DNA from: an uncultured Mucilaginibacter sp.
GTDB taxonomy: Bacteria > Bacteroidota > Bacteroidia > Sphingobacteriales > Sphingobacteriaceae
Direction: 5' to 3'
Assembly: GCA_903864275.1 (NCBI GenBank)
Contig: CAIPFE010000014.1
Location: 1 to 64,000, forward strand
Length of the DNA: 64,000 nucleotides
Positions 36,626-54,612 of the stretch are shown here, piece by piece; position 1 is the first letter of the stretch, and each line of letters begins with the position of its first letter. The position numbers and the translations under genes were made by a program. The notes under the pieces were generated by a model. The model was not told the origin of the DNA. It made no database searches and saw only the letters and a program-made list of their open reading frames with translations.

Positions 36626-37057
36626 TTAGTGATAAAGGCCCTGTCTTGTTAGTTCCGCGAAAACGGAAGTTTTTAATATTTGTATGTCGTCTTTCGATAT
36701 TAAAGGTGTTAATGTTGAAATCATTTCAAGCGGTATATTTTTTGGGTTCTTTAAATATTTTTCGATTTTCAAATAAACCTCGGTCAAAAACCGCTCAATC
36801 ACAATTAAATCATCATCCTTAAATTTTGATACGATAAATTTTGCAATCACCTTTACAGTTACTTCAGCAACAATATCACAGGTAGTTATAGATTCAAAAA
36901 CCACTTCATATTCAAGGGTTATTATACCATCATCTGTAGTTTTTTCAATAGTAAACTCCATTTCATTCTTTTTAAAACGACAATGGGTTGTTCTATTCTT
37001 ATAATTTTGGTTGATATATAAATTAACAGGGTCAATTTTCCATGGATAAATAAGCAT
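36626..37057 (-). CDS. Island hypothetical protein
   Basis: About 143 aa from ATG 37057; the frame extends to a TTG at 37114 and has another ATG at 36961. Lys/Ile/Glu-rich with segments such as FTIEKTTDDGIITLEYEVVF and VIERFLTEVYLKIEKYLKN. It looks like a mixed alpha/beta cytoplasmic protein but matches nothing I know. Just downstream of the primase-like gene on the same strand. A competing small frame runs the other way at 36583-36822; this one has the more natural composition. Confidence 0.5.
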   Translation of the reverse strand: MLIYPWKIDPVNLYINQNYKNRTTHCRFKKNEMEFTIEKTTDDGIITLEYEVVFESITTCDIVAEVTVKVIAKFIVSKFKDDDLIVIERFLTEVYLKIEKYLKNPKNIPLEMISTLTPLISKDDIQILKTSVFAELTRQGLYH

Positions 37058-37150
37058 TTGATCTGTGGTTTTAAAGGTTTTAATAAACCTAACAACAACT
37101 AACCGCAAAAACAAATTATCTTTGTCCCAATAGGCATATAGTTAGCAAAA

Positions 37151-38053
37151 TTATTTCTTCCCATATCCTAAATCCCTTAATTTTTTTGCGCAAAGTTTCC
37201 AGTCATTAATACATTCCAGTTCGCAAAATATATTTACCGGGTTAAACCCTTTTGATGCTTCAAATTTACTTGCATCCGTAAACACATAAAGTATCCGTCT
37301 TTCTGTGCAATAATCCGCACTAATGCCGCTTTCTTTACCCGGACGGGTATAGCGTTTTCTTGTACCTTTATCATAGGCCGGCTGGTATGTCCAGCCATTG
37401 TTTAGTAACACGGTTTCAACGTCCCCGTTTAAGTTAAAGTCATCAAATACATTCTTTTCTGTACTATTGGCATAATAGGCTTTTTTAGGCATTACAGGCG
37501 GCTCATAGATATAACTGAACACATTCGCATTGTGATTAAAATAGGCGCTCTTATCAAATGATTGATACCTAAAACGGGAAACATCTTTTACCGCATTATC
37601 AAAGTAGGGGCTATCAATACCACATGACTGAAAATATAGCCGCATGGCCTCAAAATGCTGACCGTGCTTACCTTTGTTTGATATTGGTATAATCCCCCAA
37701 TAGCCTGTACCGCTTACCGATAAACCACAATAAGCAACAAACGGCATATTCGTAATGGTTTTAAAAATTTCGTTCATCTTTTCGGGCGGTAGCTTGTCCA
37801 GATCAAAGCAGATCAACCCGGTATGCGCTATGACATTTTTTGCGCTCCGTGTCGGGCTGCAGATTGCGGACGGGGTGATACCGGGTAAATAAGCCTTCAG
37901 AAGATCCCGCTCGTCCTTTGTGGCTTTTGATCGTATTTCTAATACCTGGTCCTTAAAGCTTTCATCATTCAAATAATCCAATAGGTTACAATTAAATGCA
38001 ACCCCTGCATAATTGTTGTATTTTGATATGGTTTTATTTAATATTGATTCCAT
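37151..38053 (-). CDS. BT4734/BF3469-family (VirE N-terminal-like) primase-type protein
   Basis: 300 aa. Residues ~55-185 carry the family signs: SAICSPTRSAKNVIAHTGLI, CFDLDKLP (D-x-D metal-binding look), and VAYCGLSVSGTGYWGIIPIS, as in the primase-polymerase-like domains found with replication helicases of Bacteroidota islands. The C-terminal 100 residues hold a small winged-helix-like region (VETVLLNNGWTYQ). With the ATPase upstream it probably helps the excised element to replicate. Repeated TACTGTGTTA motifs lie just in front of the gene. Confidence 0.8.
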   Translation of the reverse strand: MESILNKTISKYNNYAGVAFNCNLLDYLNDESFKDQVLEIRSKATKDERDLLKAYLPGITPSAICSPTRSAKNVIAHTGLICFDLDKLPPEKMNEIFKTITNMPFVAYCGLSVSGTGYWGIIPISNKGKHGQHFEAMRLYFQSCGIDSPYFDNAVKDVSRFRYQSFDKSAYFNHNANVFSYIYEPPVMPKKAYYANSTEKNVFDDFNLNGDVETVLLNNGWTYQPAYDKGTRKRYTRPGKESGISADYCTERRILYVFTDASKFEASKGFNPVNIFCELECINDWKLCAKKLRDLGYGKK

Positions 38054-38079
38054 TTTTTATTTTCCTTTCAAATTTGGCT

Positions 38080-38174
38080 TACTGTGTTACCGTTTTGACG
38101 TAGTAATTAAATCAGTATAGCTTCTACTGTGTTACTATGTTAATGCCTATATATAATTAGGCATAACACAGTAG
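38080..38174. repeat. Iteron-like motif TACTGTGTTA, two direct and one inverted copy
   Basis: The 132-bp gap between the ATPase and primase-like genes has TACTGTGTTAC at 38080-38090 and 38125-38135 and its inverse TAACACAGTA at 38164-38173. The last two frame a second inverted repeat (ATGCCTA...TAGGCAT), giving a cruciform-capable stretch at 38124-38174. Either a replication-initiator binding region or an operator. Confidence 0.65.
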
Positions 38175-38185
38175 TAAATTAATAG

Positions 38186-39322
38186 CTATTTTAATGTGTC
38201 GGGTTTAAGGTTTTGATAGCGGGTATGTGGTGTTTTACCTACAGTAAAAAGCAAATTTTTGTCGGTATAATATTTGACATATTCCCTTACCCTTGCATCT
38301 GCAATGTGATAACCGTACCATGAACTTATTTCATTTTTAAGCCCTAAACACAACTCCTTATATTTGGGTGTTCTGTCAACTTTTAAAACTTTTGCGATTA
38401 TTTCAATATGTGTTTCAATTGCGATTTCACCGGGTAGCAAAACTTTGTTTTTTCTCTCGGCCTTGTTTTTGGGTGTATAGTCATCAATAATGTTTGGTAA
38501 CCCGTTTAAATCAATGCTAAAAGCAATTGGTTCAAAGTCTTTATCTCTGCAAAATTCAGCAGTAATAACGCTAACGTTTTTATTTTCAGCTTTGCTTACA
38601 GACACTACAGTTTGACTTTTATTTGTCAGTTCCGTTCCTAAGTGTCCCCTGGCATGTAGGTCGCTTTTATTTTGATGTAATACTGTGATAATGTGAATAT
38701 TTAAATCCCCTGTCCATTTAAGCAATTTAGATGCTATCATACTGGCTTGTTCCTCATCATTGATAGAAGTAATTAAATCCCGTATGCCGTCAATTACCGC
38801 CATACCAATATTTTCAGTATTATAGATCGCAAATTCAATCGCTCCTAATCGTTCTGCTGGTGTAAGGCCCCTCAATGAATAAATTATAAGATTATAAGGT
38901 TCGGGTACGCCTGATATGTCGCAAATGCGTTTTAATGCTTTTTGTACATAGTACTTGCTTTGTTCTGTATCAAAGTAGAGTACAGTTTTTTTGTCGTTGG
39001 GAAAGGTTGCTAATAATACTTTTTGAAAGGGTCTACCGTCTACTAATGCCGCTGCTAAAATTAGTGACAATGCAAAAGTTTTACCCGCTTTAGCTTTGCC
39101 TATCAATAGTGTAAAATCGCCTAACGTCCCGAACGTATGCGGTACACCATCGATAATAATTTCAATGCAAATGGGCGGTATTGGTATAATATCGTTTACA
39201 CTTATCCGGCAATTACTTAATAAGGTTTTATAATCCGGCTCTTTTATTATCCCCGGTATTATTTCAAATGAATTATTATTATCTTTGCTTTGGGAGTTCA
39301 AAGAATTTAAAGGAGTGTTCAT
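38186..39322 (-). CDS. RepA-like AAA ATPase / replicative helicase-type protein
   Basis: 378 aa RecA-fold ATPase (AAA_25/RepA group). Walker A GKAKAGKT in FTLLIGKAKAGKTFALSL, Walker B-like IGMAVIDGIRDL, and a downstream IHIITVLHQNKSD segment typical of hexameric RepA/DnaB-like helicases. N-terminal part SVNDIIPIPPICIEIIIDG leads into the fold. The last ~90 residues may bind DNA. It starts one base before the stop of the HTH gene region and precedes the primase-like gene; together they look like a minimal replication module for the element. Confidence 0.85.
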   Translation of the reverse strand: MNTPLNSLNSQSKDNNNSFEIIPGIIKEPDYKTLLSNCRISVNDIIPIPPICIEIIIDGVPHTFGTLGDFTLLIGKAKAGKTFALSLILAAALVDGRPFQKVLLATFPNDKKTVLYFDTEQSKYYVQKALKRICDISGVPEPYNLIIYSLRGLTPAERLGAIEFAIYNTENIGMAVIDGIRDLITSINDEEQASMIASKLLKWTGDLNIHIITVLHQNKSDLHARGHLGTELTNKSQTVVSVSKAENKNVSVITAEFCRDKDFEPIAFSIDLNGLPNIIDDYTPKNKAERKNKVLLPGEIAIETHIEIIAKVLKVDRTPKYKELCLGLKNEISSWYGYHIADARVREYVKYYTDKNLLFTVGKTPHTRYQNLKPDTLK

Positions 39323-39616
39323 TTATTTGGATGCTCCTTTCTTTTTGACGACCTCTAATGCGGTATCAACTTCTGATTTCTTAAAATATACTGTACGGCC
39401 GGTTTGATAATATTTAAAAATTCCACGTTTTTTATATGCGTGTACAGTCGCCTTTGTGCATTTAAGATAATCCGCCAATTCTGTAATTGTGAATTGCTGT
39501 GAGGTTTCGACTGGCGGGGCTGTGGGTTGTGTTAAGGCAAGGGCTGCGATAACACTTTTTTTAATTAGTAATTCAAAATTTTCTAAGCTAATTGGTGATA
39601 AAATCATGTTTTCCAT
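39323..39616 (-). CDS. Excisionase-type helix-turn-helix protein
   Basis: About 97 aa from ATG 39616 (a GTG at 39640 is the alternative). The C-terminal half is the HTH_17/MerR-like excisionase domain: FTITELADYLKCTKATVHAY, then RGIFKYYQTGRTVYFKKSEV. In Bacteroidota elements such proteins act with the tyrosine recombinase as directionality factors or regulate the module. Directly abuts the ATPase gene. Confidence 0.85.
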   Translation of the reverse strand: MENMILSPISLENFELLIKKSVIAALALTQPTAPPVETSQQFTITELADYLKCTKATVHAYKKRGIFKYYQTGRTVYFKKSEVDTALEVVKKKGASK

Positions 39617-39720
39617 TTGCTGTGTTTTTTTAAAATCCACATCAAAAGTATAAGCATAATTTACTGCAATACAATTAGTTGAATAGAGAAATTAGACTTT
39701 TGGCGAAAAGTCTAAAAAAT

Positions 39721-40446
39721 CTAATCGGTTAGAGTAAAAGGGGGTATATTTAAAGTGGTCGCCTGTCTCGTTTTGTGATTTCTTGCTGTACCTTCCTTTA
39801 TGTCAGCTTTAAAAGTATTGTTACAAATGTTCAAATACTCGCTTTTATTAGGCTGTCTCTTAAAATAGCCTTTTTCATTAAACGAAATTATGGTACTATA
39901 AAAATGTCCTTTATAGCCCCCGGTTTTGTCCTTTAAAATCTTAGTGTCTTTATCAATTAATTCGGCCTCTGAAAGTAAAACATAGATTTTATTTAAAGCA
40001 TCATTATTTTTAACAGCATCTTCAAGGGTGTTTATAGGGGCTTTAGGTTTAATTGAGTTATTTGTATTTTTTATTTTTATAGGTTTAACTGGTTTTAATT
40101 GAGCATCCAATAATCTCAATTGTTTATCTAAAAGTCTATTTTCTTTAAAATATCTCAAACCTTTATCTGTAATTGAAGCAAAAAACGGCATGTCAACTAT
40201 TAGGAGATTAATTAATTCTTGATTTGCATCATAATTTATATAGTCTTTGGACTTCAAATTACTTATAAGAATATTAATACTGTTATTGACACTTTCTTTC
40301 CAAATCAGTTTCATAGGATCATTTATTGTTTGTCCTGACTTAATATACTTACTAAAAACATGAGCAATATCAGTTTTATAGCCAATGCCGTAATCTGATA
40401 AATAGGACAAGACATTTAGAAAAAAATCTTTCTCAATAATTTCCAT
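39721..40446 (-). CDS. Island hypothetical protein next to the integrase
   Basis: 241 aa, Lys/Asn-rich, no signal peptide. The first ~110 residues are helical and contain a winged-helix-like run (ASITDKGLRYFKENRLLDKQ), a second part (~150-235) reads VLLSEAELIDKDTKILKDKT and FYSTIISFNEKGYFKRQP. The gene ends two bases before the integrase start codon region, so the two are co-transcribed. Similar unnamed proteins are common beside such integrases; function unknown. Confidence 0.6.
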   Translation of the reverse strand: MEIIEKDFFLNVLSYLSDYGIGYKTDIAHVFSKYIKSGQTINDPMKLIWKESVNNSINILISNLKSKDYINYDANQELINLLIVDMPFFASITDKGLRYFKENRLLDKQLRLLDAQLKPVKPIKIKNTNNSIKPKAPINTLEDAVKNNDALNKIYVLLSEAELIDKDTKILKDKTGGYKGHFYSTIISFNEKGYFKRQPNKSEYLNICNNTFKADIKEGTARNHKTRQATTLNIPPFTLTD

Positions 40447-40448
40447 TT

Positions 40449-41822
40449 TTATAATCCTAATTTTTGTAAGGTTTCCGCTAATAGCTTAGCCTTATCATCA
40501 TTGTTTGCCCGGATATATTTTAAAAAGCTGGTTTCTGTTTTGTGGCCTGTGGCGCTCATTATTAACATTGGCGGTACACCTGCTTTAAACATATTAGTTG
40601 CATAACTGCGGCGGCAACAATGAGAGGTTACTAAGTTGTATAATGGGTGTGTGCTTTCATTTTCTGTATTTCCCTTTGTGTCGGTTATTTTCCGGGTTTC
40701 GGTTAAACCCGCTAATTCAGCCACGAATTTTACATAATCATTAAATTTTTGATTTGATATTGTAGGTAGGCTATCAGGGTATTTATTAAGCACCGGGCGT
40801 AATTTGCTCATAATTGGAATTGTTACCCTGCTGCCTGTTTTGATCTGCTTAATTTTAATGAAATTTCCTTCAATGCTTTGAGCGTCTAACGTATTAAAGT
40901 CGCTAAACCGCAAGCCTGTATAACAGCCAATTAAAAATAAATCTCTTACCCTGTCTAATGTCGGATAACCAATTTTAAAAACTTCGTTCCCTTTAGTGTA
41001 GGTATGGAATTTAGTTTTATCCGATAAGTCTAAGTCTGTGATTTTGTTAATTTGATCTACTGTTAAATAAAGGGTGTCGGCCTCATAAGAAGGGATAATA
41101 TAATCTTTGGTTTTAAATCCTGGGCTATTGCTCTCGCTCATAACGGTTTTAATATCCTTTATATACCCGCCAAAGGTTGATTTTTCTTTATTCTCAATGT
41201 TGTAACAATAAAACCTAAAGTCCTCGTAAAACTCTTTATTAATAGCCTCAAGGGGCAATTCAGCAATACCCATATATTTCATATAGCGTTTTATTGCAGA
41301 TAGCGTAATACCATAATTTTTATAGGCATTACGTGTATATCGGCTGCCGTTATTCTTTCCAACTGAAATTAACCTTTTGCCGCTTATTGTATCGTTTAAC
41401 ACCTGTTGAAAGAATGATATAAAGTTGTGTTTAATTTCAGGTTTAGCGATTGGTTCCGGCGTTACTATTTTAGGTTTATAAATTAAGTCCAGTTGCTCCC
41501 GTACATACTTAGTGGTTAAGTTTTCGCCCTTTGCGTCCGTTACTATTGAAACCGCATCTTTTGCCAAAGCCGTTAACTTTTTATTGTTCTGTTCAGCATA
41601 AGGCGCAATACTCTTTATTGGCTTAATCGTATTGCTTGTATTGCATTCAGGCCGAAAGTATTTAATCGCTACTCTGATACCAGTATAGTATTGTAACCTT
41701 TGGCTATTAAAGGAATAAAACATATTTATTGCCTGCACGGCATCTTCGGGCTTTGATTTTTCATCTTTTTCCCTTTCGTCCCCGGCTGGGCGGGGTTCTA
41801 AGTAAAATTTAGGCTTTGCCAT
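40449..41822 (-). CDS. Tyrosine site-specific recombinase (integrase)
   Basis: 457 aa. N-terminal arm-binding region, SAM-like core-binding domain (~150-250, NFISFFQQVLN) and catalytic domain with all key residues: R305 in TGLRFSD, H401 and R404 in SHCCRRSYA, H427 in TGHKTETS and the nucleophile Y436 in FLKYIR. Should integrate and excise the island; located about 160 bp from the right junction (41997-42007), as usual for int genes. Confidence 0.95.
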   Translation of the reverse strand: MAKPKFYLEPRPAGDEREKDEKSKPEDAVQAINMFYSFNSQRLQYYTGIRVAIKYFRPECNTSNTIKPIKSIAPYAEQNNKKLTALAKDAVSIVTDAKGENLTTKYVREQLDLIYKPKIVTPEPIAKPEIKHNFISFFQQVLNDTISGKRLISVGKNNGSRYTRNAYKNYGITLSAIKRYMKYMGIAELPLEAINKEFYEDFRFYCYNIENKEKSTFGGYIKDIKTVMSESNSPGFKTKDYIIPSYEADTLYLTVDQINKITDLDLSDKTKFHTYTKGNEVFKIGYPTLDRVRDLFLIGCYTGLRFSDFNTLDAQSIEGNFIKIKQIKTGSRVTIPIMSKLRPVLNKYPDSLPTISNQKFNDYVKFVAELAGLTETRKITDTKGNTENESTHPLYNLVTSHCCRRSYATNMFKAGVPPMLIMSATGHKTETSFLKYIRANNDDKAKLLAETLQKLGL

Positions 41823-41978: not shown

Positions 41979-42045
41979 TTCGATTAATGTACTCCGGCTC
42001 TGGGTACCTGGAAAAAGCCCGGTCTGCTATGGCAGATCGGGCTTT
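41979..42045. other. Putative right attachment junction and adjacent hairpin
   Basis: TTCGA ... GCTCTGGGTAC (41979-42007) resembles the end of repeats A and B (TTCGA ... GCTCTGAGTAC). It is followed by a hairpin AAAGCCCGGTCTGC / GCAGATCGGGCTTT (42014-42027 and 42032-42045; one mismatch), the same arrangement seen at 6235 and 33242. The hairpin probably belongs to the original chromosome and terminates transcription there. The exact crossover point is not determined. The 41823-41978 stretch holds nothing else recognisable. Confidence 0.55.
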
Positions 42046-42091
42046 GTTGGTTTTAAACGCAAGCAAAGCATCAAATTTAACCGATATCGTA

Positions 42092-42493
42092 ATGAGCTGG
42101 ACCTGCCCCAAATGCGAAAGGGAATTAAAAGCACCCAACCAGATACATTATTGTGCTAAAGTAAGCATCGACAGCTTGTTTGACGGTAAGGATAAAGAGC
42201 TGATCCTGGTGTTTGATAAAATCCTGGCCGAAGTTGCCGGCTGGGATGGGGTTTTGGTGAGTACCACGCCGCACTGTATAGTATTTGTGCACAATTATAC
42301 CTTTTTAATTATCCGCCCGATGAAAAAGGCCCTTGATGTGAAGTTTTATTCTAAAACTATGCTGCACGGGAATTTGATAATAAAAAGTACCGGCTACGAA
42401 GGTAAATTTGAAAACCACATTAGGGTTATAGCATTGGATGATTTGACGCAACAGTTGTTTGGTTATTTATATCAATCGTGGCAGTTATTATAG
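42092..42493 (+). CDS. DUF5655-domain protein with N-terminal zinc ribbon
   Basis: 133 aa. MSWTCPKCERELKAPNQIHYC gives two Cys pairs of a small zinc ribbon; the rest (SLFDGKDKELILVFDKILAE ... FLIIRPMKKALDVKFYSK) is the DUF5655 fold, whose function is not known. ATG 42092 is chosen because the in-frame sequence further upstream reads through the hairpin at 42014-42045. First chromosomal gene right of the island. Confidence 0.7.
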   Translation: MSWTCPKCERELKAPNQIHYCAKVSIDSLFDGKDKELILVFDKILAEVAGWDGVLVSTTPHCIVFVHNYTFLIIRPMKKALDVKFYSKTMLHGNLIIKSTGYEGKFENHIRVIALDDLTQQLFGYLYQSWQLL

Positions 42494-44886: not shown

Positions 44887-45043
44887 CTTTACAAAAGTCC
44901 ATAAGCCGTAAATTGTTTAGTACGGCTGCTATTAAGACGATTGAGGGCGGGGAAACATTTTAAAGAATTGCGGATACAACGAGTTGTGACCGGCAAATGA
45001 CATTATGCGGCGTCATTGACCTTCGGTTCGAAGCCCCTACCCG

Positions 45044-46030
45044 CTACTTCACCGGCGTGATCACGATATTCCGGTAATCAATTGGCCCTTCATCCCCCTG
45101 TAGCTTGATGGGGCCCGGTTCTCCTTCCCTGCTGTCGAGCGCGCCGCCGGTGATGCCGGGTATTTCCGCGTTGCATATAACGGTTTTTCCATTTGCCACA
45201 ATAGTTACTAATCTGCCTGTTAAGGTAATATCGTAAGATTGCCACTCGCCGGGATTTTTAGCCATCAATTTGTTTGGCGGCAGGAAGCCGTAGACTGAGC
45301 TAAACTGGTTATTTATAGGTTCGGGATCGCCGTTTTTAGCGTCAATGATCTGTACCTCATACCTGCCCCTCAGGTATACGCCACTGTTACTGCCCTTGGG
45401 ATACCTGAATTCAACATGAATTTTAAAATCAGTAAAGGTTTTATCACTTATAAGGTTAGCGCCTTTTTTAGGGCTTACTAATATTCCGTTTTGCACAGTC
45501 CATTGATTATCGGCATCAACATGCCAGCCCTTAATACTTTTCCCATTGAACAATCTAATTGGCGCACCCCAAACCGGCGCCTTATCCCTGACAAGTTTGG
45601 GCGCACGCACCCCTGTCCAGTTATAGGTAACGCCGTCGGTATAAACCATGGTGCCTTTTATATGATCGCCGCTAACCTCGAATTGGAAATCTAAATTCCT
45701 GGTACCCGCATCCCATTGCGGGGGGATAGAAAAACTGTATTTCCCATCGTTTACTTTAACTTCCGAAATAGGCCGTGCGCTGCCGCCCGAATGCACAAAA
45801 CGACCGATCAGCGTATGCGTCCCTGATTTCTGCACCTCTAACCATGAAGGCTGGCTTTTACCTCCCTGATCAATAGTCAAGTCCCACCGGCCAATTACAT
45901 CAGGATTTTTATTCGGTTCCGGGCGGCCGACGGATGCCCTTACAGCGGAAAAGATAAATAGCATCAGAATAATTTGTACGCTAAAAAAATGGACAACCGG
46001 CTTGTGGCTGTATATTGACAGGTTTTTCAT
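45044..46030 (-). CDS. Secreted DUF1080 (3-keto-disaccharide hydrolase-like) protein
   Basis: 328 aa with a signal peptide. Residues ~150-325 are the DUF1080 concanavalin-like fold: LFNGKSIKGWHVD, FKIHVEFRYPKGSNSGVYLRGRYEVQII, and DYRNIVITP at the end. A separate N-terminal beta region (~40-140, GRWDLTIDQGGKSQPSWLEV) comes first. DUF1080 proteins include 3-keto-glucoside hydrolases and sugar-binding modules; activity here is open. Between the metallophosphoesterase (157 bp, small imperfect hairpin only) and the divergent sensor gene. Confidence 0.82.
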   Translation of the reverse strand: MKNLSIYSHKPVVHFFSVQIILMLFIFSAVRASVGRPEPNKNPDVIGRWDLTIDQGGKSQPSWLEVQKSGTHTLIGRFVHSGGSARPISEVKVNDGKYSFSIPPQWDAGTRNLDFQFEVSGDHIKGTMVYTDGVTYNWTGVRAPKLVRDKAPVWGAPIRLFNGKSIKGWHVDADNQWTVQNGILVSPKKGANLISDKTFTDFKIHVEFRYPKGSNSGVYLRGRYEVQIIDAKNGDPEPINNQFSSVYGFLPPNKLMAKNPGEWQSYDITLTGRLVTIVANGKTVICNAEIPGITGGALDSREGEPGPIKLQGDEGPIDYRNIVITPVK

Positions 46031-46358
46031 AAAATTTATAATTTCGGTTTAAGTTCCCAAATTAAGTAAATAATCTTACTAAAGAAAGGCTGTAGCGTGT
46101 AATTCAAATCGTCGCTTTGATATCAAACGTTCCGGCAGAACGTGAAAATTATTTTTGTGTCTTCTGCCAACCAAACGTCCGTCCGGACGATTACCACAGT
46201 TTTCGTGCTGTAAGGGCGTTTGATTGCCGGCCTTTGCAACATTTAAAGCAATTTCATCGTCATTATTGTTTACCGGGACAGCCCGGCCCAATAGAAAACC
46301 AATCAAAATAGTTACAAAGAAATAACTCAGGGTACTGCTATATTTACATCATTAAAAT
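46031..46358. promoter_or_regulatory. Divergent intergenic region (DUF1080 / 7TM sensor)
   Basis: 328 bp without a convincing gene. It contains the palindrome GTCCGTCCGGAC around 46187-46198 and, close to the sensor gene, TATATTTA at 46339-46346, a weak match to the Bacteroidota -7 element TAnnTTTG. Promoters for both flanking genes must lie here. Confidence 0.4.
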
Positions 46359-48266
46359 ATGAGTAAAAACGCTATAAACTTATACTTTTTAACCCTCACC
46401 TTATTACTCTGTGTGTCGGCGCTAAATGGCCGTGCCCAGCAAAAAGTTGCCATTGACGACCATGTAAATCAACATATATTTTCGTTTGATGAGATCACCT
46501 ATCTCGAAGATCCAAAAGGAACGCTTACTTTTAACCAGGTTTTATCGCCGCAGGAATCTTCCCGGTTTAAGCCAAGCCCGTCAAGTACGCCCCAGAATTA
46601 TAACCTCTCATCGGTATATTGGTATAAGATCACTATTCAACATCCACTTAATACAAAGAAAAACTGGATACTTGAGTTTTTCGATCAAACCATTGATCAG
46701 ATCGACGGATACATACCCACTAACGGCGGACAATATACTATCGAAAAAATCGGGGCCCTTAACAAGTTCAGTGACCGCCCGTTCCAGCATAAAAATTTTG
46801 AGATCAACCTCGGCATTTATCCCGGCAAGGCATACACTTATTATTTCAGGGTAAAATCGCACCAAACGGCAGATGTGATCATTGTACTGCGTTCCGTTAA
46901 CTGGTTCATTCAGTATGCTTTAAGCGAATATTTGCTATTTGGCGTATTTTATGGAATGATACTCGTTTTTGCCTTCTACAACCTGATCATGTTTGTTGCA
47001 GTAAAACAAAGGCAGTACCTGTATTATATTCTGTATAACCTTAGCGTGGCATTTTATGAGCTTTGTAATGATGGCATAGGCTACCAATATTTATGGCCAA
47101 ATTCACCAGGTTGGAACGAATACGCTTACGGTTTTGCCTTATGCTTTGTAAGTGTATTTGCGCTAATGTTTACCAACAGGCTATTGTTTGTAAAGGTAAA
47201 AGCGCCACGCCTTTATAAATTAATTAATATAGTTATTGCCGCCAGGATAGCGTTTTTCTTTATTTGTCTCATTGTAAATAAGCAATGGTTCAACTATAAA
47301 TTTTTAGAAGCCATCCCGTTATGCATCGCATTTTATACCGGCATTTATATTTTTAGCAAAGGTTACCGGCCGGCCAGGTTCTTTGTATTAGGTTATACCT
47401 TTCTTTTTGCCGGCTTTACCCTAAAGCTGCTGAGCAACTTTGGCTGGTTTGATTTGCAAACCATCAGCTATTACAGTCTTAGTATTTGTTTCATAATTGA
47501 GATGATCTTCCTGGCATTTGCGGTTGGTGATAAGGTTAGATTGCTGAAAAGCAATAAGGACAGAGCTCAACGTGAAATTATAAGGCAGCTGAAGGATAAC
47601 CAAAAACTTAAAGAGTCCATAAATATCCGGCTCGAGGAACAAATACAAGAGCGGACACACGAGGTAATTGAAAAGGCGGCGATTATTAAACAACAAAATG
47701 AGGACCTGAACCGCGTTAATAAAATTTTATCTCAACAGGCAGCCGATATATTAAGAATGAACTTGCTGCTGGAGAAGGATAACCTGGAACTGCAAAGTAG
47801 TTTTGAGAAAGTCAGCCGGGACCGCATAATGTCCGCCGGGGTAGATTTTGAAGAATTCAGCAAAATTTATCCTGATACCGACAGCTGCTACAAGTTTTTG
47901 GCAAGCCTTAAATGGAATAACGGCTATAAGTGCCATAAATGCGGCAATATACACTTCTTTCATGGGCACCTGCCCTACAGCAGGCGTTGCAGTAAATGCA
48001 GCTATGAAGAATCGGTTACAGCGTACACCATATTCCAGAATACACGTATCCCGATAACGAAGGCTTTTTACATGATATTTTTAGTTTATTCGACCAACGG
48101 AAAAATATCATCCCACAAACTATCCGAAATATTAACTATACGCCAAAGCACCTGCTGGGCCTATAGCAACCGCATAAAAAAGCTCTTATCCGATCGTAAA
48201 AACGCCTTAAAAAACCGCAGCAGTGAAGGCTGGAGTAAGCTGGTACTGGATAATCATGCCGAATAA
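46359..48266 (+). CDS. 7TM-DISM sensor fused to an IS1595-transposase-type zinc ribbon/HTH region
   Basis: 635 aa. Signal peptide (cleavage near NGRAQ), extracellular 7TMR-DISMED2 beta-sandwich (~40-170), seven membrane helices (~180-390), a coiled coil (~395-490; KLKESINIRLEEQIQERTHE). Instead of a kinase or cyclase output it ends in a zinc ribbon (C525-x2-C528, C544-x2-C547), YEESVTAYTIFQNTRIPITK and an HTH-like region (SSHKLSEILTIRQSTCWAYS), which is how IS1595/ISXO2-family transposases begin; their catalytic DDE/N domain is absent. I infer a membrane-tethered, ligand-responsive DNA-binding regulator, likely of the SusCD operon that starts 314 bp downstream on the same strand. Confidence 0.82.
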   Translation: MSKNAINLYFLTLTLLLCVSALNGRAQQKVAIDDHVNQHIFSFDEITYLEDPKGTLTFNQVLSPQESSRFKPSPSSTPQNYNLSSVYWYKITIQHPLNTKKNWILEFFDQTIDQIDGYIPTNGGQYTIEKIGALNKFSDRPFQHKNFEINLGIYPGKAYTYYFRVKSHQTADVIIVLRSVNWFIQYALSEYLLFGVFYGMILVFAFYNLIMFVAVKQRQYLYYILYNLSVAFYELCNDGIGYQYLWPNSPGWNEYAYGFALCFVSVFALMFTNRLLFVKVKAPRLYKLINIVIAARIAFFFICLIVNKQWFNYKFLEAIPLCIAFYTGIYIFSKGYRPARFFVLGYTFLFAGFTLKLLSNFGWFDLQTISYYSLSICFIIEMIFLAFAVGDKVRLLKSNKDRAQREIIRQLKDNQKLKESINIRLEEQIQERTHEVIEKAAIIKQQNEDLNRVNKILSQQAADILRMNLLLEKDNLELQSSFEKVSRDRIMSAGVDFEEFSKIYPDTDSCYKFLASLKWNNGYKCHKCGNIHFFHGHLPYSRRCSKCSYEESVTAYTIFQNTRIPITKAFYMIFLVYSTNGKISSHKLSEILTIRQSTCWAYSNRIKKLLSDRKNALKNRSSEGWSKLVLDNHAE

Positions 48267-48580
48267 GCCATTTAATTCCTAATTAACCAGACCACAACCG
48301 GTTGTATAACAATCTCTTAAAAATGGGATTTATCCGTATCACAATTTGTTAAAAATTCATCGGTATCCTTCTGTTTATAATTAAAAATCAACAGGTTATG
48401 AAAATTGAATGAAGGGTGTTAAACCGTATCATTTTATTTGTAAATGGCTAATTATTAATTATTTATAAAAATAAATATCCATTTTTTTTTCATTTTGCAA
48501 TTTAATGCTCCTAACTTTACATCCATAAACCAGCATGCATCTCGGCATGCAGTAAATTTTGTAACCACTAAGAAAAATGT
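48267..48580. promoter_or_regulatory. Upstream region of second SusCD operon
   Basis: 314 bp, very AT-rich, no gene. TTTG at 48494-48497 and TAACTTTA at 48512-48519 resemble the Bacteroidota -33 and -7 elements but their spacing (14 bp) is shorter than usual. The inverted repeat GCATGC...GCATGC lies at about 48534-48550 close to the presumed transcript start. No CAAACGTTTG site occurs here, so this operon is outside the LacI set. Confidence 0.4.
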
Positions 48581-51500
48581 ATGAAAAAAAGACTTACTTT
48601 ATTTGTAGTCCTGCTATTAGCCGGCTGTGCTTTTGCCTTTGCACAAACAAACACCGTAAAAGGAGTTGTCAAGGATGACCAGGGACTCCCATTGCCCGGG
48701 GTAACCGTTAAGATAAAAGGTATAAATGAGGGTGCTACAACCGATTTAAATGGAAAGTATTCCATTAATGTCTCCGGGACAGCAACATTAGTATTTTCGT
48801 TTATCGGTTTTGATAACCAGGAGCAGCCTGTTAATAACCGTTCAGAGATCAATGTGTCCCTAACAATCAGCAAAAAACAGTTGAATGAAGTTGTAGTTGT
48901 TGGTTATGGCACACAGAGAAAAGGCGATCTTACATCAGCTATATCAACTGTAAGTGTTAAAGACATTGCAACCAGGCCAATAACTAATCCGGAAGAGGCT
49001 TTAATTGGTAAAGCGCCCGGCGTGCAAGTATCCATCCCATCAGGGGAGCCGGGGCATGACCTATCTGTCCGCATACGTGGTATTGGTTCGGTAAATGGCG
49101 CAGAACCATTGTATGTGGTTGACGGAGTACTGGCAAATGACATAAAAACCCTTGATCCAAACTCAATTGAGTCGATCAGCGTTCTGAAAGATGCTTCAGC
49201 TACAGGGATTTATGGCGCGGCGGGTTCTACCAATGGCGTGGTAATGATCACAACCAAACAAGGCACAAAAGGTAAACCAAAAGTTGATGCGAATTTTTCT
49301 ACCGGGATGCAGCAAATATCGAAAAAAATCCCCGTTCTTAATAACCAGCAATGGCTTGCACTACAGACGGAAATTGATGGTGGTACGCCGCCTGTCCTTC
49401 CGTCATATTACAGTTTAAGTACCAATAATAACTGGCAGGATTTAATTTATCATAGCGCCATACAAACCAATGCCAATGTTGGCATATCGGGCGGTTCTGA
49501 AACAGGTACCTATTATTTTGGCCTGGGCTATTTAGCCCAGGATGGTATTGTGGTAGGCTCAAATTTTGACCGTTATTCGGCAAAATTTAGTGTTAATCAA
49601 ATGGCAAACAAATGGCTTACTGTTGGTGGTAATATTAATTATAACCGTTCAAACCAGCGTACAGTGCCTCAAAATGCTGCTATATCTCGTGGCGGTTCAA
49701 TTTTAAGCGTTTTACAAACCCCTGAGTATGTTCCGATCATTATGCCTGCAGGTAGCCCTACACCAGGGGTGTATGGTTATAGTACCTTTTACTCAGGTGA
49801 TAATCCGTATTCTGATATTTACAACAATAACAATAAAACCATTGCAAACAACTTGCTGGGCGATGCACACGCCGAAATCAAATTGCCTTTTGATATTCAC
49901 TACCGCAGCCAGTTTAATTTGACGATGGAAAACTCTAATTACCAATATTTCCTAGACCCCTATAAAAGTTTAGGCGGTCTTGGTACAGGGGGTTCAGCAA
50001 GTCAAAACTATAACGAAACCACCCGCTGGGCCTGGGATAACACGTTAACTTACGACAAAACCATAGGTTCGAGTAAAATCAATGTAGTAGCAGGCACATC
50101 GGCATTAGACGAAAAAATATTCCTTTCTTCACAGACCGGAAATGGCTTTGGCTCAAGCGCTATTCAAACACTCAATGGGGCAAGCAGTGTTGGCAGTCCA
50201 TATACTGCAGGGTATGAGTGGTCAACGAACTCTTATTTCGGCAGGGCTACATACGCTTATAATGATAGATATTTGCTTACCGCAACGCTCCGCTCAGATG
50301 GCACATCCCGCGTAGGTATCAATCAACAATATGGTACATTCCCTGCATTTTCTGCTGGTTGGAAAGTATCGAACGAAGACTTTATGAAAGGTGTGAACTG
50401 GGTTCAGGATTTAAAAATACGCGGTGGTTGGGGTAAAACAGGCAACTTACCACCTTATTCCATGCTATACCCTTCATTCTCGTTGTTAGGTAGCGGGAGT
50501 TATCCTTTTAATTCATCAACCAGTGCAACGCCCGGTTATAGCCCATCAGGACAAATCGGAAATCCGGATTTGAAATGGGAATCGGCAACCTCTACAAATT
50601 TTGGTTTCGATGCCTCCTTTTTAGATAGTAGAATTAACGTATCGGCCGATTTTTACAACAAAAAGGTAACGGATTTAATATTTATCAAATCTTTACCGGG
50701 AACAACGGGCGGAAAACAGATTGCCTCCAATTTACCGGCCAACGATATTAATAAAGGTTTCGAATTTAGTATAGATGCGGCCATTGTAAGACAACACAAT
50801 TTTACCTGGGATATGAACTTAAATATGTCTTTCAATACCAATAAAATACAAGGCTTAGACCCCGCGTTAGTTTACAGTACAGCAGGCTTTGGTGGCGGCG
50901 CAACCAGCGCAGCTGGTACGCAAATTATTAAAAACGGTTATGGCCTGGGTACTTTTTGGGGTTATGTGGCCGAGGGCGTTGATCCTGCAACGGGTAATGA
51001 AAAATTTAGCGCTGACCAAACCAACTTAGGCAGTGCTTTACCAAAATTCAGCTATGGCATTGCTGAAAATTTCCGCTATAAAGCATTTACATTATCGTTA
51101 TTGTTTGATGGGGTATATGGCAACAAAGTATATGATGCTACCCGGCAGGAAACCGAATCGCTCAATGGCCCTGCCAACGAAACCACCGGTGTATTAGCAC
51201 GTTGGGAAAAACCTGGGGATATCACCAGTGTACCAACTGCAATTAACAACGGCACTACTAATTCGGCGGCAATCAACTTCCTGAATAACAATGCAACTTC
51301 TTATTATCTTGAAAGCGGCTCGTACTTCCGCTTGCGTAACGCCTCATTAGGCTATAATTTTAACCCTGCTTTATTAAAACAAATCGGTATCGAAAAGCTT
51401 CGTTTATTTGTTACGGGTCAAAACCTGGTTATGATTACCAAATACAAAGGGTATACCCCCGATGTAAATAGCTTTGGTAATGGCACAAACAATAAACCGG

Positions 51501-51604
51501 TAAATGCAGCCGATGGTGGTCCATCCTTATTGTCGTTAGGTGTGGATCATGGTACTTATCCTGCTGCCAGGGTTTATACAGTTGGTGTAAATGTTGAATT
51601 TTAA
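48581..51604 (+). CDS. SusC-type TonB-dependent outer-membrane transporter (second locus)
   Basis: 1007 aa. Signal peptide to FAFAQ (about residue 22), carboxypeptidase-like domain (VKGVVKDDQGLPLPGVTVKI), NEVVVVGYGTQRKGDLTS at the plug start, plug with YVVDGV and LKDASATGIYGAAGSTNGV, then the beta-barrel ending ARVYTVGVNVEF. Forms the transporter with the SusD-like protein 20 bp downstream; GH30 follows. A beta-glucan or glucosyl conjugate is a plausible ligand because of GH30, by inference only. Confidence 0.96.
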   Translation: MKKRLTLFVVLLLAGCAFAFAQTNTVKGVVKDDQGLPLPGVTVKIKGINEGATTDLNGKYSINVSGTATLVFSFIGFDNQEQPVNNRSEINVSLTISKKQLNEVVVVGYGTQRKGDLTSAISTVSVKDIATRPITNPEEALIGKAPGVQVSIPSGEPGHDLSVRIRGIGSVNGAEPLYVVDGVLANDIKTLDPNSIESISVLKDASATGIYGAAGSTNGVVMITTKQGTKGKPKVDANFSTGMQQISKKIPVLNNQQWLALQTEIDGGTPPVLPSYYSLSTNNNWQDLIYHSAIQTNANVGISGGSETGTYYFGLGYLAQDGIVVGSNFDRYSAKFSVNQMANKWLTVGGNINYNRSNQRTVPQNAAISRGGSILSVLQTPEYVPIIMPAGSPTPGVYGYSTFYSGDNPYSDIYNNNNKTIANNLLGDAHAEIKLPFDIHYRSQFNLTMENSNYQYFLDPYKSLGGLGTGGSASQNYNETTRWAWDNTLTYDKTIGSSKINVVAGTSALDEKIFLSSQTGNGFGSSAIQTLNGASSVGSPYTAGYEWSTNSYFGRATYAYNDRYLLTATLRSDGTSRVGINQQYGTFPAFSAGWKVSNEDFMKGVNWVQDLKIRGGWGKTGNLPPYSMLYPSFSLLGSGSYPFNSSTSATPGYSPSGQIGNPDLKWESATSTNFGFDASFLDSRINVSADFYNKKVTDLIFIKSLPGTTGGKQIASNLPANDINKGFEFSIDAAIVRQHNFTWDMNLNMSFNTNKIQGLDPALVYSTAGFGGGATSAAGTQIIKNGYGLGTFWGYVAEGVDPATGNEKFSADQTNLGSALPKFSYGIAENFRYKAFTLSLLFDGVYGNKVYDATRQETESLNGPANETTGVLARWEKPGDITSVPTAINNGTTNSAAINFLNNNATSYYLESGSYFRLRNASLGYNFNPALLKQIGIEKLRLFVTGQNLVMITKYKGYTPDVNSFGNGTNNKPVNAADGGPSLLSLGVDHGTYPAARVYTVGVNVEF

Positions 51605-51624: not shown

Positions 51625-53100
51625 ATGAGAAATACAAAAATATTTTTAACCTGTGCCGGGATAATGCTATTGGCACTATCGGCATGTAAAAAGAGTTTTA
51701 TAGATAAAGTTCCACAATCCAGCTTAACAACCGGAAATTTCTTCAAAACAGCCGCGGATGCTGAAACCGGTTTAACCGGGGCTTACATTGCTATGAGAGG
51801 TGGTTTTTATCAATACGATAATCTTTTGTTTACGGATGGCCGGTCGGATAATTGCTATGTAAATGGTGATAACAGTGGCCAGGAGTGGCCCCTGGAAAAC
51901 TTTACCTACTCACCTTCGAATGACAAAGGCGATTGGCAAGTTTTATATGATATGATTTATGCAGCTAATACGGTATTAGACAAGGTGCCCGCTATAACCG
52001 ACCCTGCATTAACAGCTACCCGTAAAAACCAAATATTGGCTGAAGCACGATTTTTAAGAGCCACGCACTATTATTGGTTAGTCACCGAGTGGGGAGCATC
52101 TCCTTTGATATTGTCTACCAACTTTAATAATAATTTCACGCCTGACCGTGCGCCGGTTGCTACTGTATATGCTCAAATTATAGCCGACCTGCAATTTGCA
52201 GATGCTAATTTACCGGCAACGCCTTTTAATGGGCAAGCAGGCCGGGCCACACAAGGCGCCGCCGATGCTCAATTAGCAAAAACTTATGCACAAATGGGTG
52301 ATTATACCAACTGCCTTGTTTATTGTAATAAGGTTATTAATAGCGGGCAGTATTCCTTAATACCCAATTACGCTAATTTATGGGGTGTTGCAAATAAAAA
52401 TAATGCTGAGTCCATTTTCGAAATTCAGGCTAACCAAACAGGCAGCTACTATAATTATGGCGCTGAACTATGGGATTATGTATCCTCTGATAATTATCCT
52501 AAACGTAATATTGGCTCCTATGATTTGATCCAGGCTTTCGCAGCAGAAGGTGATAGTGGCCCCCGGTACCAGGCTACCTTTAACTGGCAAATTGCGAATG
52601 CTGCATTTAATATGCCATTGAACGCCTGGGACCCCAATAAGCCAATACCATTTGTAAATAAACAACCCGATCCGGGCGGCTTTGACAGCCCTGATGATAT
52701 TGAGCTAATACGTTACGCTGATGTTATTTTACTCGCTGCAGAAGCAAATAATCAGTTAGGTAATGGAGCTGCCGCGATTGCTGAACTCAATCAAATCAGA
52801 ACCCGTGCCGGTATCGCTAATACTACAGCTACCACAAAAAGCGAATTGGCATTGGCTATCTTAAACGAAAGGAGATTAGAGTTAGTAAACGAAGGCCACC
52901 GCTGGAACGATTTATTGCGTGCTAACGCTAATGGCACGATCAACATAATAACCTTAATGAATAGCCAGCATGATTCAAACGGTAATTTGCTAAAATATGG
53001 ACCTGGTGGAGCAGGTGTTGATCAACACTTGCTGTTATTCCCTTTTCCAGCCAGCGAATTACTGTTAAACCCGAACCTTAAGCAAAACCCGGGTTATTGA
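51625..53100 (+). CDS. SusD/RagB-family lipoprotein (second locus)
   Basis: 491 aa. Lipobox ALSAC (about residue 20). SusD features: EARFLRATHYYWLVTEWGAS, GAADAQLAKTYAQMGDYTNC, ELIRYADVILLAAEANNQLG, ILNERRLELVNEGHRWNDLL and the C-terminal FPFPASELLLNPNLKQNPGY. Partner of the SusC directly upstream; followed by a strong terminator. Confidence 0.95.
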   Translation: MRNTKIFLTCAGIMLLALSACKKSFIDKVPQSSLTTGNFFKTAADAETGLTGAYIAMRGGFYQYDNLLFTDGRSDNCYVNGDNSGQEWPLENFTYSPSNDKGDWQVLYDMIYAANTVLDKVPAITDPALTATRKNQILAEARFLRATHYYWLVTEWGASPLILSTNFNNNFTPDRAPVATVYAQIIADLQFADANLPATPFNGQAGRATQGAADAQLAKTYAQMGDYTNCLVYCNKVINSGQYSLIPNYANLWGVANKNNAESIFEIQANQTGSYYNYGAELWDYVSSDNYPKRNIGSYDLIQAFAAEGDSGPRYQATFNWQIANAAFNMPLNAWDPNKPIPFVNKQPDPGGFDSPDDIELIRYADVILLAAEANNQLGNGAAAIAELNQIRTRAGIANTTATTKSELALAILNERRLELVNEGHRWNDLLRANANGTINIITLMNSQHDSNGNLLKYGPGGAGVDQHLLLFPFPASELLLNPNLKQNPGY

Positions 53101-53199: not shown

Positions 53200-54612
53200 A
53201 TGTATAACTGTAAGTACCTTACCGTGGGTTTATTTATTGTATTGGGTTTACAATCACCCCATGCTGCCGGCCAAAAAATAGCTTCAAAGGAAAGCAAGCC
53301 CCAGTTATGGCTCACTGATCCCGGCGATTCAATATTTTTTAAGTTACAAAATCAACACGTCGGGACTGCGCCTGATAACGGCCCGGTAATCACCATCGAT
53401 AAATCAAAAACTTACCAGCAAATGGATGGGTTTGGATTTGCTTTAACCGGTGGCAGCGCCATGCTGATAAACAAAATGAGTGCGGTTAAACAGGCTGATC
53501 TGTTAAAGGAGTTATTTGGTGTCGCTAAAAATAATATCGGTGTTAGTTATTTAAGAATAAGCATTGGCTCCTCCGACCTGGATGATCATGTTTTTTCGTA
53601 TGATGACGTACCTGCCGGCGAAAAAGATATTGATCTTAAAAAATTTAGTTTGGAAAATGACCATAAAGCACTGATACCGGTATTAAAAAAAATATTGGCG
53701 ATAAATCCTCATGTAAACATACTTGCCTCGCCCTGGAGCCCACCGGCCTGGATGAAAACCAACGATAGTACGGCCGGGGGGTATTTAAAACCCGAATACT
53801 ACCACACTTATGCACAATATTTTATAAAGTATATAAAAGAAATGGCTGCCAATGGTATCCGTATAGACGCGATCACTATTCAAAATGAACCTTTGAACCC
53901 AAAAAACAACCCGAGTATGGTTATGGAAGCAGCCGAACAGGCTGACTTTATATTAAAAAACCTGGGGCCTGAATTTAAAAAGGCAGGAATTAAAACGAAG
54001 ATCATCCTTTATGATCATAACGCTGACCGGCCCGACTACCCAATTTCGATTTTAAATAATCATGAAGCAGCAAAATATATTGATGGTTCTGCGTTTCATT
54101 TATACGGCGGCAAAATAGAAGCATTATCAAAAGTTCACGATGCCAATCCCGGCAAAAATTTGTATTTTACTGAACAGTGGGTTGGTGCGCCGGGTAACAT
54201 AAAGAAAGACCTCCCCTTTCATATTAAAGAATTAATTATCGGTGCGCCACGAAACTGGAGCAGGAATGTTATCGAATGGAACCTGGCAGCCGATCAGTAC
54301 CAGGAACCGCACACGCCCGGCGGATGTAGTCGTTGCCTCGGGGCGATAACCATTAACGGCGATAGCGTAACCCGGAACTCCGCATATTATATAATTGCTC
54401 ACGCTTCAAAATTTGTGCGGCCGGGCTCAAAACGTATCGCTTCCAGTAATCTTGAAGATTTGCCAAACGTTGCTTTTTTAACGGCAGACGGAAAAATCGT
54501 ATTGATCGTGTATAACGATAGTAAATCCAAACAAACATTTGATGTCAGATATGATGGTACGCACATAGCGGCGGTGTTAAATGCTGATGCTGTTGGCACT
54601 ATTGTATTCTAA
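53200..54612 (+). CDS. Secreted GH30-family glycoside hydrolase
   Basis: 470 aa with signal peptide (cleavage near AAGQK). GH30 glucosylceramidase/beta-1,6-glucanase type: MDGFGFALTGGSAML, ILASPWSPPAWMKTN, TIQNEPLNP with acid/base Glu230, YFTEQW with nucleophile Glu325, and VIEWNLAADQ. The C-terminal beta-sandwich (FVRPGSKRI, VALIVYNDS-like) completes the family architecture. A retaining beta-glycosidase, probably cleaving beta-1,6-glucan or glucosyl linkages in the periplasm. Lies 48 bp after the SusD terminator. Confidence 0.9.
   Translation: MYNCKYLTVGLFIVLGLQSPHAAGQKIASKESKPQLWLTDPGDSIFFKLQNQHVGTAPDNGPVITIDKSKTYQQMDGFGFALTGGSAMLINKMSAVKQADLLKELFGVAKNNIGVSYLRISIGSSDLDDHVFSYDDVPAGEKDIDLKKFSLENDHKALIPVLKKILAINPHVNILASPWSPPAWMKTNDSTAGGYLKPEYYHTYAQYFIKYIKEMAANGIRIDAITIQNEPLNPKNNPSMVMEAAEQADFILKNLGPEFKKAGIKTKIILYDHNADRPDYPISILNNHEAAKYIDGSAFHLYGGKIEALSKVHDANPGKNLYFTEQWVGAPGNIKKDLPFHIKELIIGAPRNWSRNVIEWNLAADQYQEPHTPGGCSRCLGAITINGDSVTRNSAYYIIAHASKFVRPGSKRIASSNLEDLPNVAFLTADGKIVLIVYNDSKSKQTFDVRYDGTHIAAVLNADAVGTIVF

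Follow-up and report, generated by a model that had tools for sequence, protein, structure and literature searches.

What does a 7TMR-DISM receptor do when the usual place of its catalytic output domain is occupied by part of a transposase? This question is raised by an open reading frame (ORF) in a 64,000-nucleotide stretch of DNA from an uncultured Mucilaginibacter sp. (assembly GCA_903864275.1, contig CAIPFE010000014.1, positions 1 to 64,000; called the window below). It encodes a 635-residue protein, here called the fusion, which the original prediction, made from the letters alone, had read as a 7TMR-DISM receptor with a domesticated IS1595 module that may regulate a neighbouring locus with a glycoside hydrolase of family GH30. 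Our analysis indicates that the fusion is most probably a membrane-tethered one-component activator of polysaccharide-utilization loci (PULs) that took its DNA-binding head from a transposase of the IS1595 family. Such a receptor of soil bacteria very probably switches on adjoining genes for particular polysaccharides. Its DNA binding, its ligand and the sign of its regulation are what we infer from sequence.

A 7TMR-DISM receptor with a C-terminal zinc ribbon and helix-turn-helix of IS1595 type

The fusion had been described as having a signal peptide, a DISMED2 domain, seven helices, a coiled coil and a ribbon plus helix-turn-helix (HTH) end with no catalytic domain, and domain searches bore out this layout. 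Pfam matched 7TMR-DISMED2 (PF07696, E 5.9e-34), which places the sensor in the 7TMR-DISM type, and 7TMR-DISM_7TM (PF07695) over the full model (positions 1–205 of 205, E 9.1e-47). The N-terminus is hydrophobic and resembles a signal peptide, and in a low-confidence structure model the helices 367–471 and 475–492 span the linker region. The ribbon matched Zn_ribbon_IS1595 (PF12760) with E 8.4e-5 and 22.9 bits, below the curated 25.4, in the Pfam hmmscan, and with 27.8 bits, above the cut-off, in the genome search. Positions 1–56 of the 215 in the NCBIfam IS1595 transposase model NF033547 matched the HTH region (E 5e-5), at 23.3 bits and thus well under the curated 75; a 20-residue tail and the stop follow. 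The Pfam scan of the protein detected none of the histidine kinase, receiver and AraC-type parts of a hybrid two-component system, no sigma domain and no DDE domain (PF12762). The ORF is thus confirmed as a 7TMR-DISM receptor with an IS1595-type zinc ribbon and HTH end and without a DDE domain. Ordinary 7TMR-DISM receptors share the DISMED2, 7TM and helical linker parts with the fusion and differ from it in their outputs (kinase, cyclase or other); the three scanned in the genus were all histidine kinases, in line with the claim that such receptors usually end catalytically.

The ribbon cysteines C525, C528, C544 and C547 were invariant in an eight-row alignment, and CxxC...CxxC was intact in 103/103 fusions examined, a set whose collecting profile itself included the ribbon. 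Residues of the HTH and the ribbon are conserved among the fusions. IS1595-family (ISXO2-like) transposases have the same order, zinc ribbon followed by HTH, but carry a DDE domain, whereas the fusion is joined to a receptor and DDE-free. A full IS1595-family transposase of 296 residues (L081, read in L106), assigned to the family with its DDE domain by Pfam and NCBIfam, aligned with residues 499–615 of the fusion (42% over 117 residues, E 3e-34). When this transposase was compared by tblastn with positions 45001–50000 of the window, only the ribbon-HTH part and one chance-level match were recovered, which argues that the fusion has no DDE remnant; with the DDE domain missing, the fusion does not count as an IS1595 transposase.

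A tree was built from 68 ribbon-HTH segments (127 columns), among them 42 of the 83 fusions collected at that stage, and all 42 formed one clade nested within IS1595-type transposases. The clade had a support of 99 by bootstrap and 77 by SH-aLRT, the latter being moderate for 127 columns, and was recovered in 98% of 200 bootstrap trees. This grouping agrees with the prediction of a domesticated IS1595 module, and the simplest reading is that the fusions descend from one old capture event. Just outside the clade lay a 137-residue ribbon-HTH protein (L024) and the transposase-type L081, L023 and L082. L024 (L108:1194-1607, genome G160) is free-standing and has no DDE domain; it may be a relative in soluble form or else what is left of a truncated transposase.

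A scan of named genomes yielded seven full-length relatives, five in Mucilaginibacter, one in Fulvivirga and one in a Cyclobacteriaceae metagenome-assembled genome, together with a Hufsiella protein that matched through the sensor alone. Judged by score against the C-terminal profile and by frame length, fusions were present in at least 11 of 395 genomes of a phylum sample, all within the window's class, and in at least 16 of 395 genomes of a class sample; the two samples overlap, and both counts are lower bounds because at most nine candidates were scored per genome. In the genus sample 75 of 120 genomes carried a fusion, one of them interrupted by contig ends, and fusions also occurred in families other than that of the window. 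A recent insertion of an IS1595 element that cut a 7TMR-DISM gene short, leaving a pseudogene, would likewise produce a C-terminus of IS1595 type. We consider this vanishingly unlikely, since the fusions form a single clade over several families with full-length frames and a common gene order, the zinc ligands are intact throughout and no DDE remnant lies downstream. An insertion accident confined to one genome, named beforehand in the original prediction as the case in which it would not hold, is ruled out by the wide spread over many genomes and several families and by the single clade.

The C-terminal profile also picked out another group. Nine places in genome G162 have open frames of 306–339 residues scoring 135–145 bits. 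One copy (L109:5356-6300), in whose DDE region two acidic residues seem, on inspection by eye, to be missing, scored 22 against the PF12762 cut-off of 27 and 77.2 against the cut-off of 75 of the NCBIfam IS1595 transposase model; the nine are possibly another domesticated group. SusC/SusD-like genes were seen by eye near L109. A family search found the nearest SusD (PF07980) 12–21 kb away for six copies and none on the contig for the other three (C6), so that a PUL linkage of this group is unsupported.

Association with polysaccharide-utilization loci

We gathered the contexts of 103 fusions, the window included, using a simple ORF caller (at least 140 residues), and compared them with 13 ordinary 7TMR-DISM proteins and with 128 genes from 20 windows chosen arbitrarily in five genomes of the genus. 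(Twenty ordinary 7TMR-DISM windows had been fetched; seven were discarded because the protein did not turn up there in the sensor search.) SusC or SusD was found within three genes of 59/103 fusions, compared to 0/13 ordinary 7TMR-DISM proteins and 15/128 arbitrary genes. SusC lay immediately downstream of 42 fusions (0/13 and 2/128 in the controls) and immediately upstream in divergent orientation of another 8 (0/13 and 0/128), together 50/103 compared to 0/13 and 2/128. When carbohydrate-active enzymes (CAZymes) were included, a Sus or enzyme gene was within three genes of 98/103 fusions, 1/13 ordinary receptors and 18/128 arbitrary genes, a contrast that is inflated because the enzyme families were chosen from fusion neighbours; the SusC/SusD contrast is unaffected. 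Such a gene was immediately adjacent to 92/103 fusions, compared to 0/13 and 7/128. The five fusions without one within three genes were L008, L098, L125, L127 and L129. A ribbon that aligns better with a non-transposase family, together with random variation of the neighbours, was the other case in which the original prediction was not to hold; it is at odds with the grouping inside IS1595-type transposases and with these counts. The fusion belongs to PULs.

The neighbouring enzymes, assigned by Pfam on cluster representatives, comprised GH5, GH16, GH3, glycoamylase, GH2, alginate lyase, chondroitinase-B-like, GH88, GH97 and GH30 proteins, and subgroups of the regulator tracked PUL types, namely SusC-SusD-GH30, GH5-GH30-GH16 and alginate lyases. 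One locus (L284, G906:C127) has a tandem pair of fusion genes 3' of a GH5 gene. In the window, SusC, SusD and GH30 follow the fusion on the plus strand, as had been noted for SusC. The GH30 protein compared best with the structures 5ngk/5ngl (E 1e-83, versus ~2e-38 for human glucosylceramidase). As 5ngk is a Bacteroides beta-1,6-glucanase, the substrate of this locus is most likely a beta-1,6-glucan.

A candidate operator upstream of susC

The gap between the regulator and SusC spans 314 bp in the window and contains a direct-repeat motif. In an alignment of six orthologous gaps, CCGTATC or a near variant occurred twice with a spacing of 90–92 bp, and the gaps of other genera proved, by reading, to be laid out alike, GCGTAT(C/T) being a frequent form. 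A pair of CGTAT(C/T/A) 75–105 bp apart was present in gaps flanking 50/103 fusions (67.6 kb in total) and in 1/231 control gaps (75.6 kb), where the lone pair had, by eye, no conserved flanks. Within the window's family the pair flanked 49 of 89 fusions, and each of the six loci in the group closest to the window had it. We therefore describe, as a new candidate operator, two direct repeats ~GGTATTNAA(G/C)CGTATCA, mostly 86–94 bp apart.

With the spacing set to 84–96 bp, 60 intergenic pairs were found in 58/102 fusion loci, and 19 more pairs of these loci sat in coding DNA. The gene next after the 60 intergenic pairs was SusC in 35 cases, GH30 in 16, GH5 in 4, alginate lyase in 2, and GH2, a regulator and no gene in one each. 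Letters that had formed no part of the search also showed conservation, namely G at –10 (56 and 52 of 60) and A at –3 (57 and 59 of 60). Overall, the flanks kept G at –10, AA at –3/–2, G or C at –1 and A at +6, giving a consensus of ~GKKATTNAA(G/C)CGTAT(C/T)A. The pair preceded 33 of the 50 SusC genes directly after a fusion, compared to 2/11 other SusC genes of fusion loci and 0/6 SusC genes in other windows. Pairs located 5' of the regulator mostly faced the divergent gene and one (L152) faced the regulator; because these upstream pairs mostly point away from it, autoregulation through the operator is not general.

When the sequences were aligned on the proximal copy (56 of 58, two near-copies having been dropped), a second block, ~TTAATTATCAGTTATTTA, appeared some 23–40 bp past the proximal CGTAT, followed by two TTTG elements, the second ~83 bp 3' of the proximal copy; the distances were similar among the sequences. 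The two TTTG elements are presumably a Bacteroidota –33/–7 promoter, and in the window TAACTTTA is a –7-like element by the Bacteroidota consensus. An ATNATCA element similar to the TTAATTATCAGTTATTTA block lies between the two boxes in many loci, and the block may be a second binding site. We infer activation because the boxes sit upstream of these promoter-like elements. Since the sequence does not reveal the sign of regulation, the tethered protein might instead be a repressor that keeps the susC promoter off until its ligand arrives. We regard this as unlikely, as the proximal box lies ~50–80 bp 5' of the TTTG elements, an activator position, and the functional analogue SusR activates, according to PMC3878776.

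Genome-wide searches used the strict pattern CGTATYAN{74,86}AASCGTATYA, with the reversed pattern as control. Among the 120 genus genomes, the 75 with a fusion contained 58 matches (41 genomes with at least one; reversed control 15) and the 45 without contained 9 (7 genomes; reversed control 2). In a family sample of 101 genomes, in which fusion status was tallied by hand from the length and identity of the sensor hit and the C-terminus was read in a fetched subset, 28 genomes with a fusion-like hit had 27 matches (19 genomes; reversed control 8) and the other 73 had 6 (5 genomes; reversed control 12). Of the 58 matches in fusion genomes of the genus, 34 were within 15 kb of the fusion and 24 elsewhere. 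The window's own genome had the strict pattern twice, in the regulator-SusC gap and in what by eye resembles a recQ coding sequence.

Twelve of the 24 matches elsewhere were checked in nine genomes mapped for GH30. Nine of these sat 382–543 bp before a GH30 match in the correct direction (one each in G447, G490, G440, G497 and G436, two each in G491 and G413). In G491, which is a single contig, the two sites lie 1.06 and 1.93 Mb from the fusion. Two matches ~10 kb from a fusion (G506, G461) likewise precede GH30. The predicted regulation of the GH30 locus thus gains support from the motif in the 314-bp gap and from its presence before distant GH30 genes.

The repeats could also be the site of another PUL regulator, with the fusion merely accompanying PULs and its ribbon-HTH serving as a protein-protein or structural module. 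Pattern matches in fusion-less genomes, such as the nine in the genus, are what this would predict. We find it improbable: matches cluster in fusion genomes in both samples (58 in 75 versus 9 in 45; 19/28 versus 5/73), more than half of the 58 are near the fusion, SusC genes away from the fusion mostly lack the pair, and the ribbon and HTH residues remain conserved.

Besides the inflated enzyme contrast and the moderate SH-aLRT value mentioned above, several points weigh against a fusion that activates PULs through this operator. The motif was discovered by reading the same gaps as were used in the first count, and in that count 53/103 fusions had no pair in a flanking gap. The samples from the genus and the family share genomes with the discovery set, the family sample many of them, although they are still less circular than the gap count; matches in fusion-less genomes exceeded the reversed control in the genus (9 versus 2) and were fewer in the family sample (6 versus 12). 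Three of the 12 matches checked elsewhere had no GH30 (one in G491, two in G413). The nine genomes had been picked after their matches were seen to be alike, and the nine GH30 sites reduce to roughly two families of orthologous promoters (7 and 2). Except in G491, a match 'elsewhere' is one on a different contig from the fusion, and two of the sites (G440, G413:C18) lie close to where their contig ends. A Foldseek search against PDB returned zero matches at E ≤ 0.001. Finally, beyond the window's family only 1/14 fusions had the pair in a flanking gap, and an operator present in every lineage was rejected on this count.

In the Fulvivirga/Cyclobacteriaceae-like clade, a search of the gaps of six loci and one upstream gap for direct repeats and 8-mers gave a CGATTTCGGA stretch common to three, too little to use. 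In family f9, two of three loci (L101 and L105) share a single half-site, AAGCGTATA (GTGTGTANNAAGCGTATA), in the gap after the fusion, which suggests that beyond the window's family the sequence recognized is the same.

AlphaFold2 gave a mean pLDDT of 75.2 for the C-terminal 165 residues and of 69.6 for the full length (pTM 0.47). In a second structure comparison 117/480 chains reached Z ≥ 2 and none reached 5; several top rows were HTH proteins of the Lrp/AsnC and TrpR type. A profile searched against PDB sequences yielded four ribosomal zinc-ribbon chains (E 0.16–1.3), and a full-length profile two unrelated chains (E 0.11–0.12). The structure and PDB profile comparisons were uninformative as to family.

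An ungapped comparison of the right ends of related Persicobacter elements (GGTACCTAAGTGCATAAAA) with the operator consensus GGTATTAAAGCGTATCAAA gave agreement at 13 of 19 positions. Of eight transposon ends compared, two did better than nearly all shuffles, 7 and 6 of 2000 shuffles being as good; both are Persicobacter right ends that are not independent, because they are copies of one element type; a consensus end made by eye was equalled by 16 of 5000 shuffles. The other six ends were unlike the operator (199 to 1997 of 2000 shuffles as good), with 742 for the left end of the same element. No clear terminal repeats were found for the nearest transposases L081, L023 and L025, partly because contigs end there. 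That this class of PUL activators arose by one transposase-domain capture, with operators that descend from or converge on inner terminal inverted repeats, is a speculative and rather doubtful proposal, and a transposon-end origin of the operator is a lead only.

Proposed mechanism and relation to known regulators

In the mechanism we propose, an oligosaccharide released from the polysaccharide of the locus, in the window most likely beta-1,6-glucan, would bind the periplasmic DISMED2 domain. The change would be relayed to the cytoplasm by the 7TM part and the helical linker, which would also keep two subunits together. As predicted from the conserved cis element, two ribbon/HTH heads would bind the two asymmetric direct-repeat boxes; the wider spacing, mostly 86–94 bp, would suit two large membrane proteins that pair up, each supplying the head for one of the boxes. 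RNA polymerase would then be recruited to the adjacent promoter, turning on susC-susD-GH30.

SusR-like regulators of Bacteroides PULs, as described in PMC3878776, have a membrane sensor, a long linker and asymmetric direct-repeat boxes with a 67 or 77 bp spacer before susC. The domain order of the fusion is consistent with their periplasmic sensor, membrane part and cytoplasmic DNA-binding part, the last being putative in the fusion, and its loci likewise have long-spacer direct repeats at PUL promoters, where binding is predicted. It is set apart by description, in having a 7TMR-DISM sensor, an IS1595-type end and a spacing mostly of 86–94 bp. That the fusion is a divergent SusR-family protein is very improbable, since the SusR DNA-binding domain reportedly has no significant similarity to those of known factors (PMC3878776), whereas the fusion matches IS1595 transposases. 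Hybrid two-component systems and extracytoplasmic function (ECF) sigma/anti-sigma pairs also serve in PUL-linked glycan sensing (PMC3878776 and PMC10766802); the fusion differs in lacking, by domain scan, the kinase, receiver, AraC and sigma parts of such systems. A 7TMR-DISM protein with a ChiS-family DNA-binding end is drawn for Proteobacteria in PMC8092284. The ChiS-family domain, in the accessible text of that paper, is a proteobacterial cryptic HTH without a transposase ribbon and is given no PUL link.

A further comparison is the Hufsiella arboris protein L011:7941-9665, whose sensor is 48% identical to the fusion over query residues 25–451. Like the fusion it adjoins SusC-SusD, and one gene further lies a relative of the window's GH30. 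Its output is not a ribbon-HTH but a LuxR/GerE-type HTH (PF00196, 22.4 bits, just below the cut-off of 23.5), and by eye the motif pair was not seen in its gap. In this protein the output domain appears to have been swapped with the locus link retained.

A census of transmembrane transcription regulators (PMC10269533) does not contain the terms zinc, LuxR or transposase in its main text. Literature searches, which lay mostly outside subscription papers, found no account of a 7TMR-DISM/IS1595 fusion family, and, among the titles listed on transposase-derived transcription factors, all were eukaryotic or unrelated. The job of the fusion is thus of a known kind, while its DNA-reading part and operator are not known. 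If our reading is correct, the fusion would add a further family, with a testable operator and regulon, to the few regulator classes for polysaccharide choice in Bacteroidota, and how a membrane-bound protein reaches a promoter would become directly testable. It would also be a clear bacterial instance of transposase capture yielding a sequence-specific transcription factor, a route that to our knowledge is known mainly from eukaryotes.

Table 1. Features of the fusion gene, the candidate operator and the predicted target operon in the window
Feature	Position	Strand	Basis
Fusion regulator, 7TMR-DISM / IS1595-ribbon-HTH, 635 aa	46359..48266	+	ORF and domain searches
Sensor 7TMR-DISMED2, extracellular (periplasmic), aa 45–177	46491..46889	+	Pfam
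7TM domain, aa 190–392	46926..47534	+	Pfam
Linker, long helical (coiled-coil-like), aa ~393–495	47535..47843	+	low-confidence model, sequence
Zinc ribbon, IS1595-transposase type, aa 507–549	47877..48005	+	Pfam, genome search, alignment
Helix-turn-helix region, IS1595-transposase type, aa 561–615	48039..48203	+	NCBIfam, alignment, L081 comparison
Candidate operator, distal copy, GGGATTTATCCGTATCA	48325..48341	+	gap alignment and pair counts
Candidate operator, proximal copy, GGTGTTAAACCGTATCA, 90 bp from distal	48415..48431	+	gap alignment and pair counts
–7-like element of susC promoter, TAACTTTA	48512..48519	+	by eye
SusC/RagA outer-membrane transporter, first gene of predicted target operon	48581..51604	+	TIGR04056
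SusD-family protein	51625..53100	+	PF07980
GH30 glycoside hydrolase	53200..54612	+	PF02055; nearest solved structure 5ngk/5ngl

Elsewhere in the window, positions 41987-42493 encode a 168-residue protein with a CxxC-type ribbon of its own (TCPKCERELKAPNQIHYC), in which no relation to the fusion was seen. It stands beside what by eye is a small integrative island (36626-41822), upstream of the locus, with integrase-like, excisionase-like HTH and replication-like ORFs on the minus strand.
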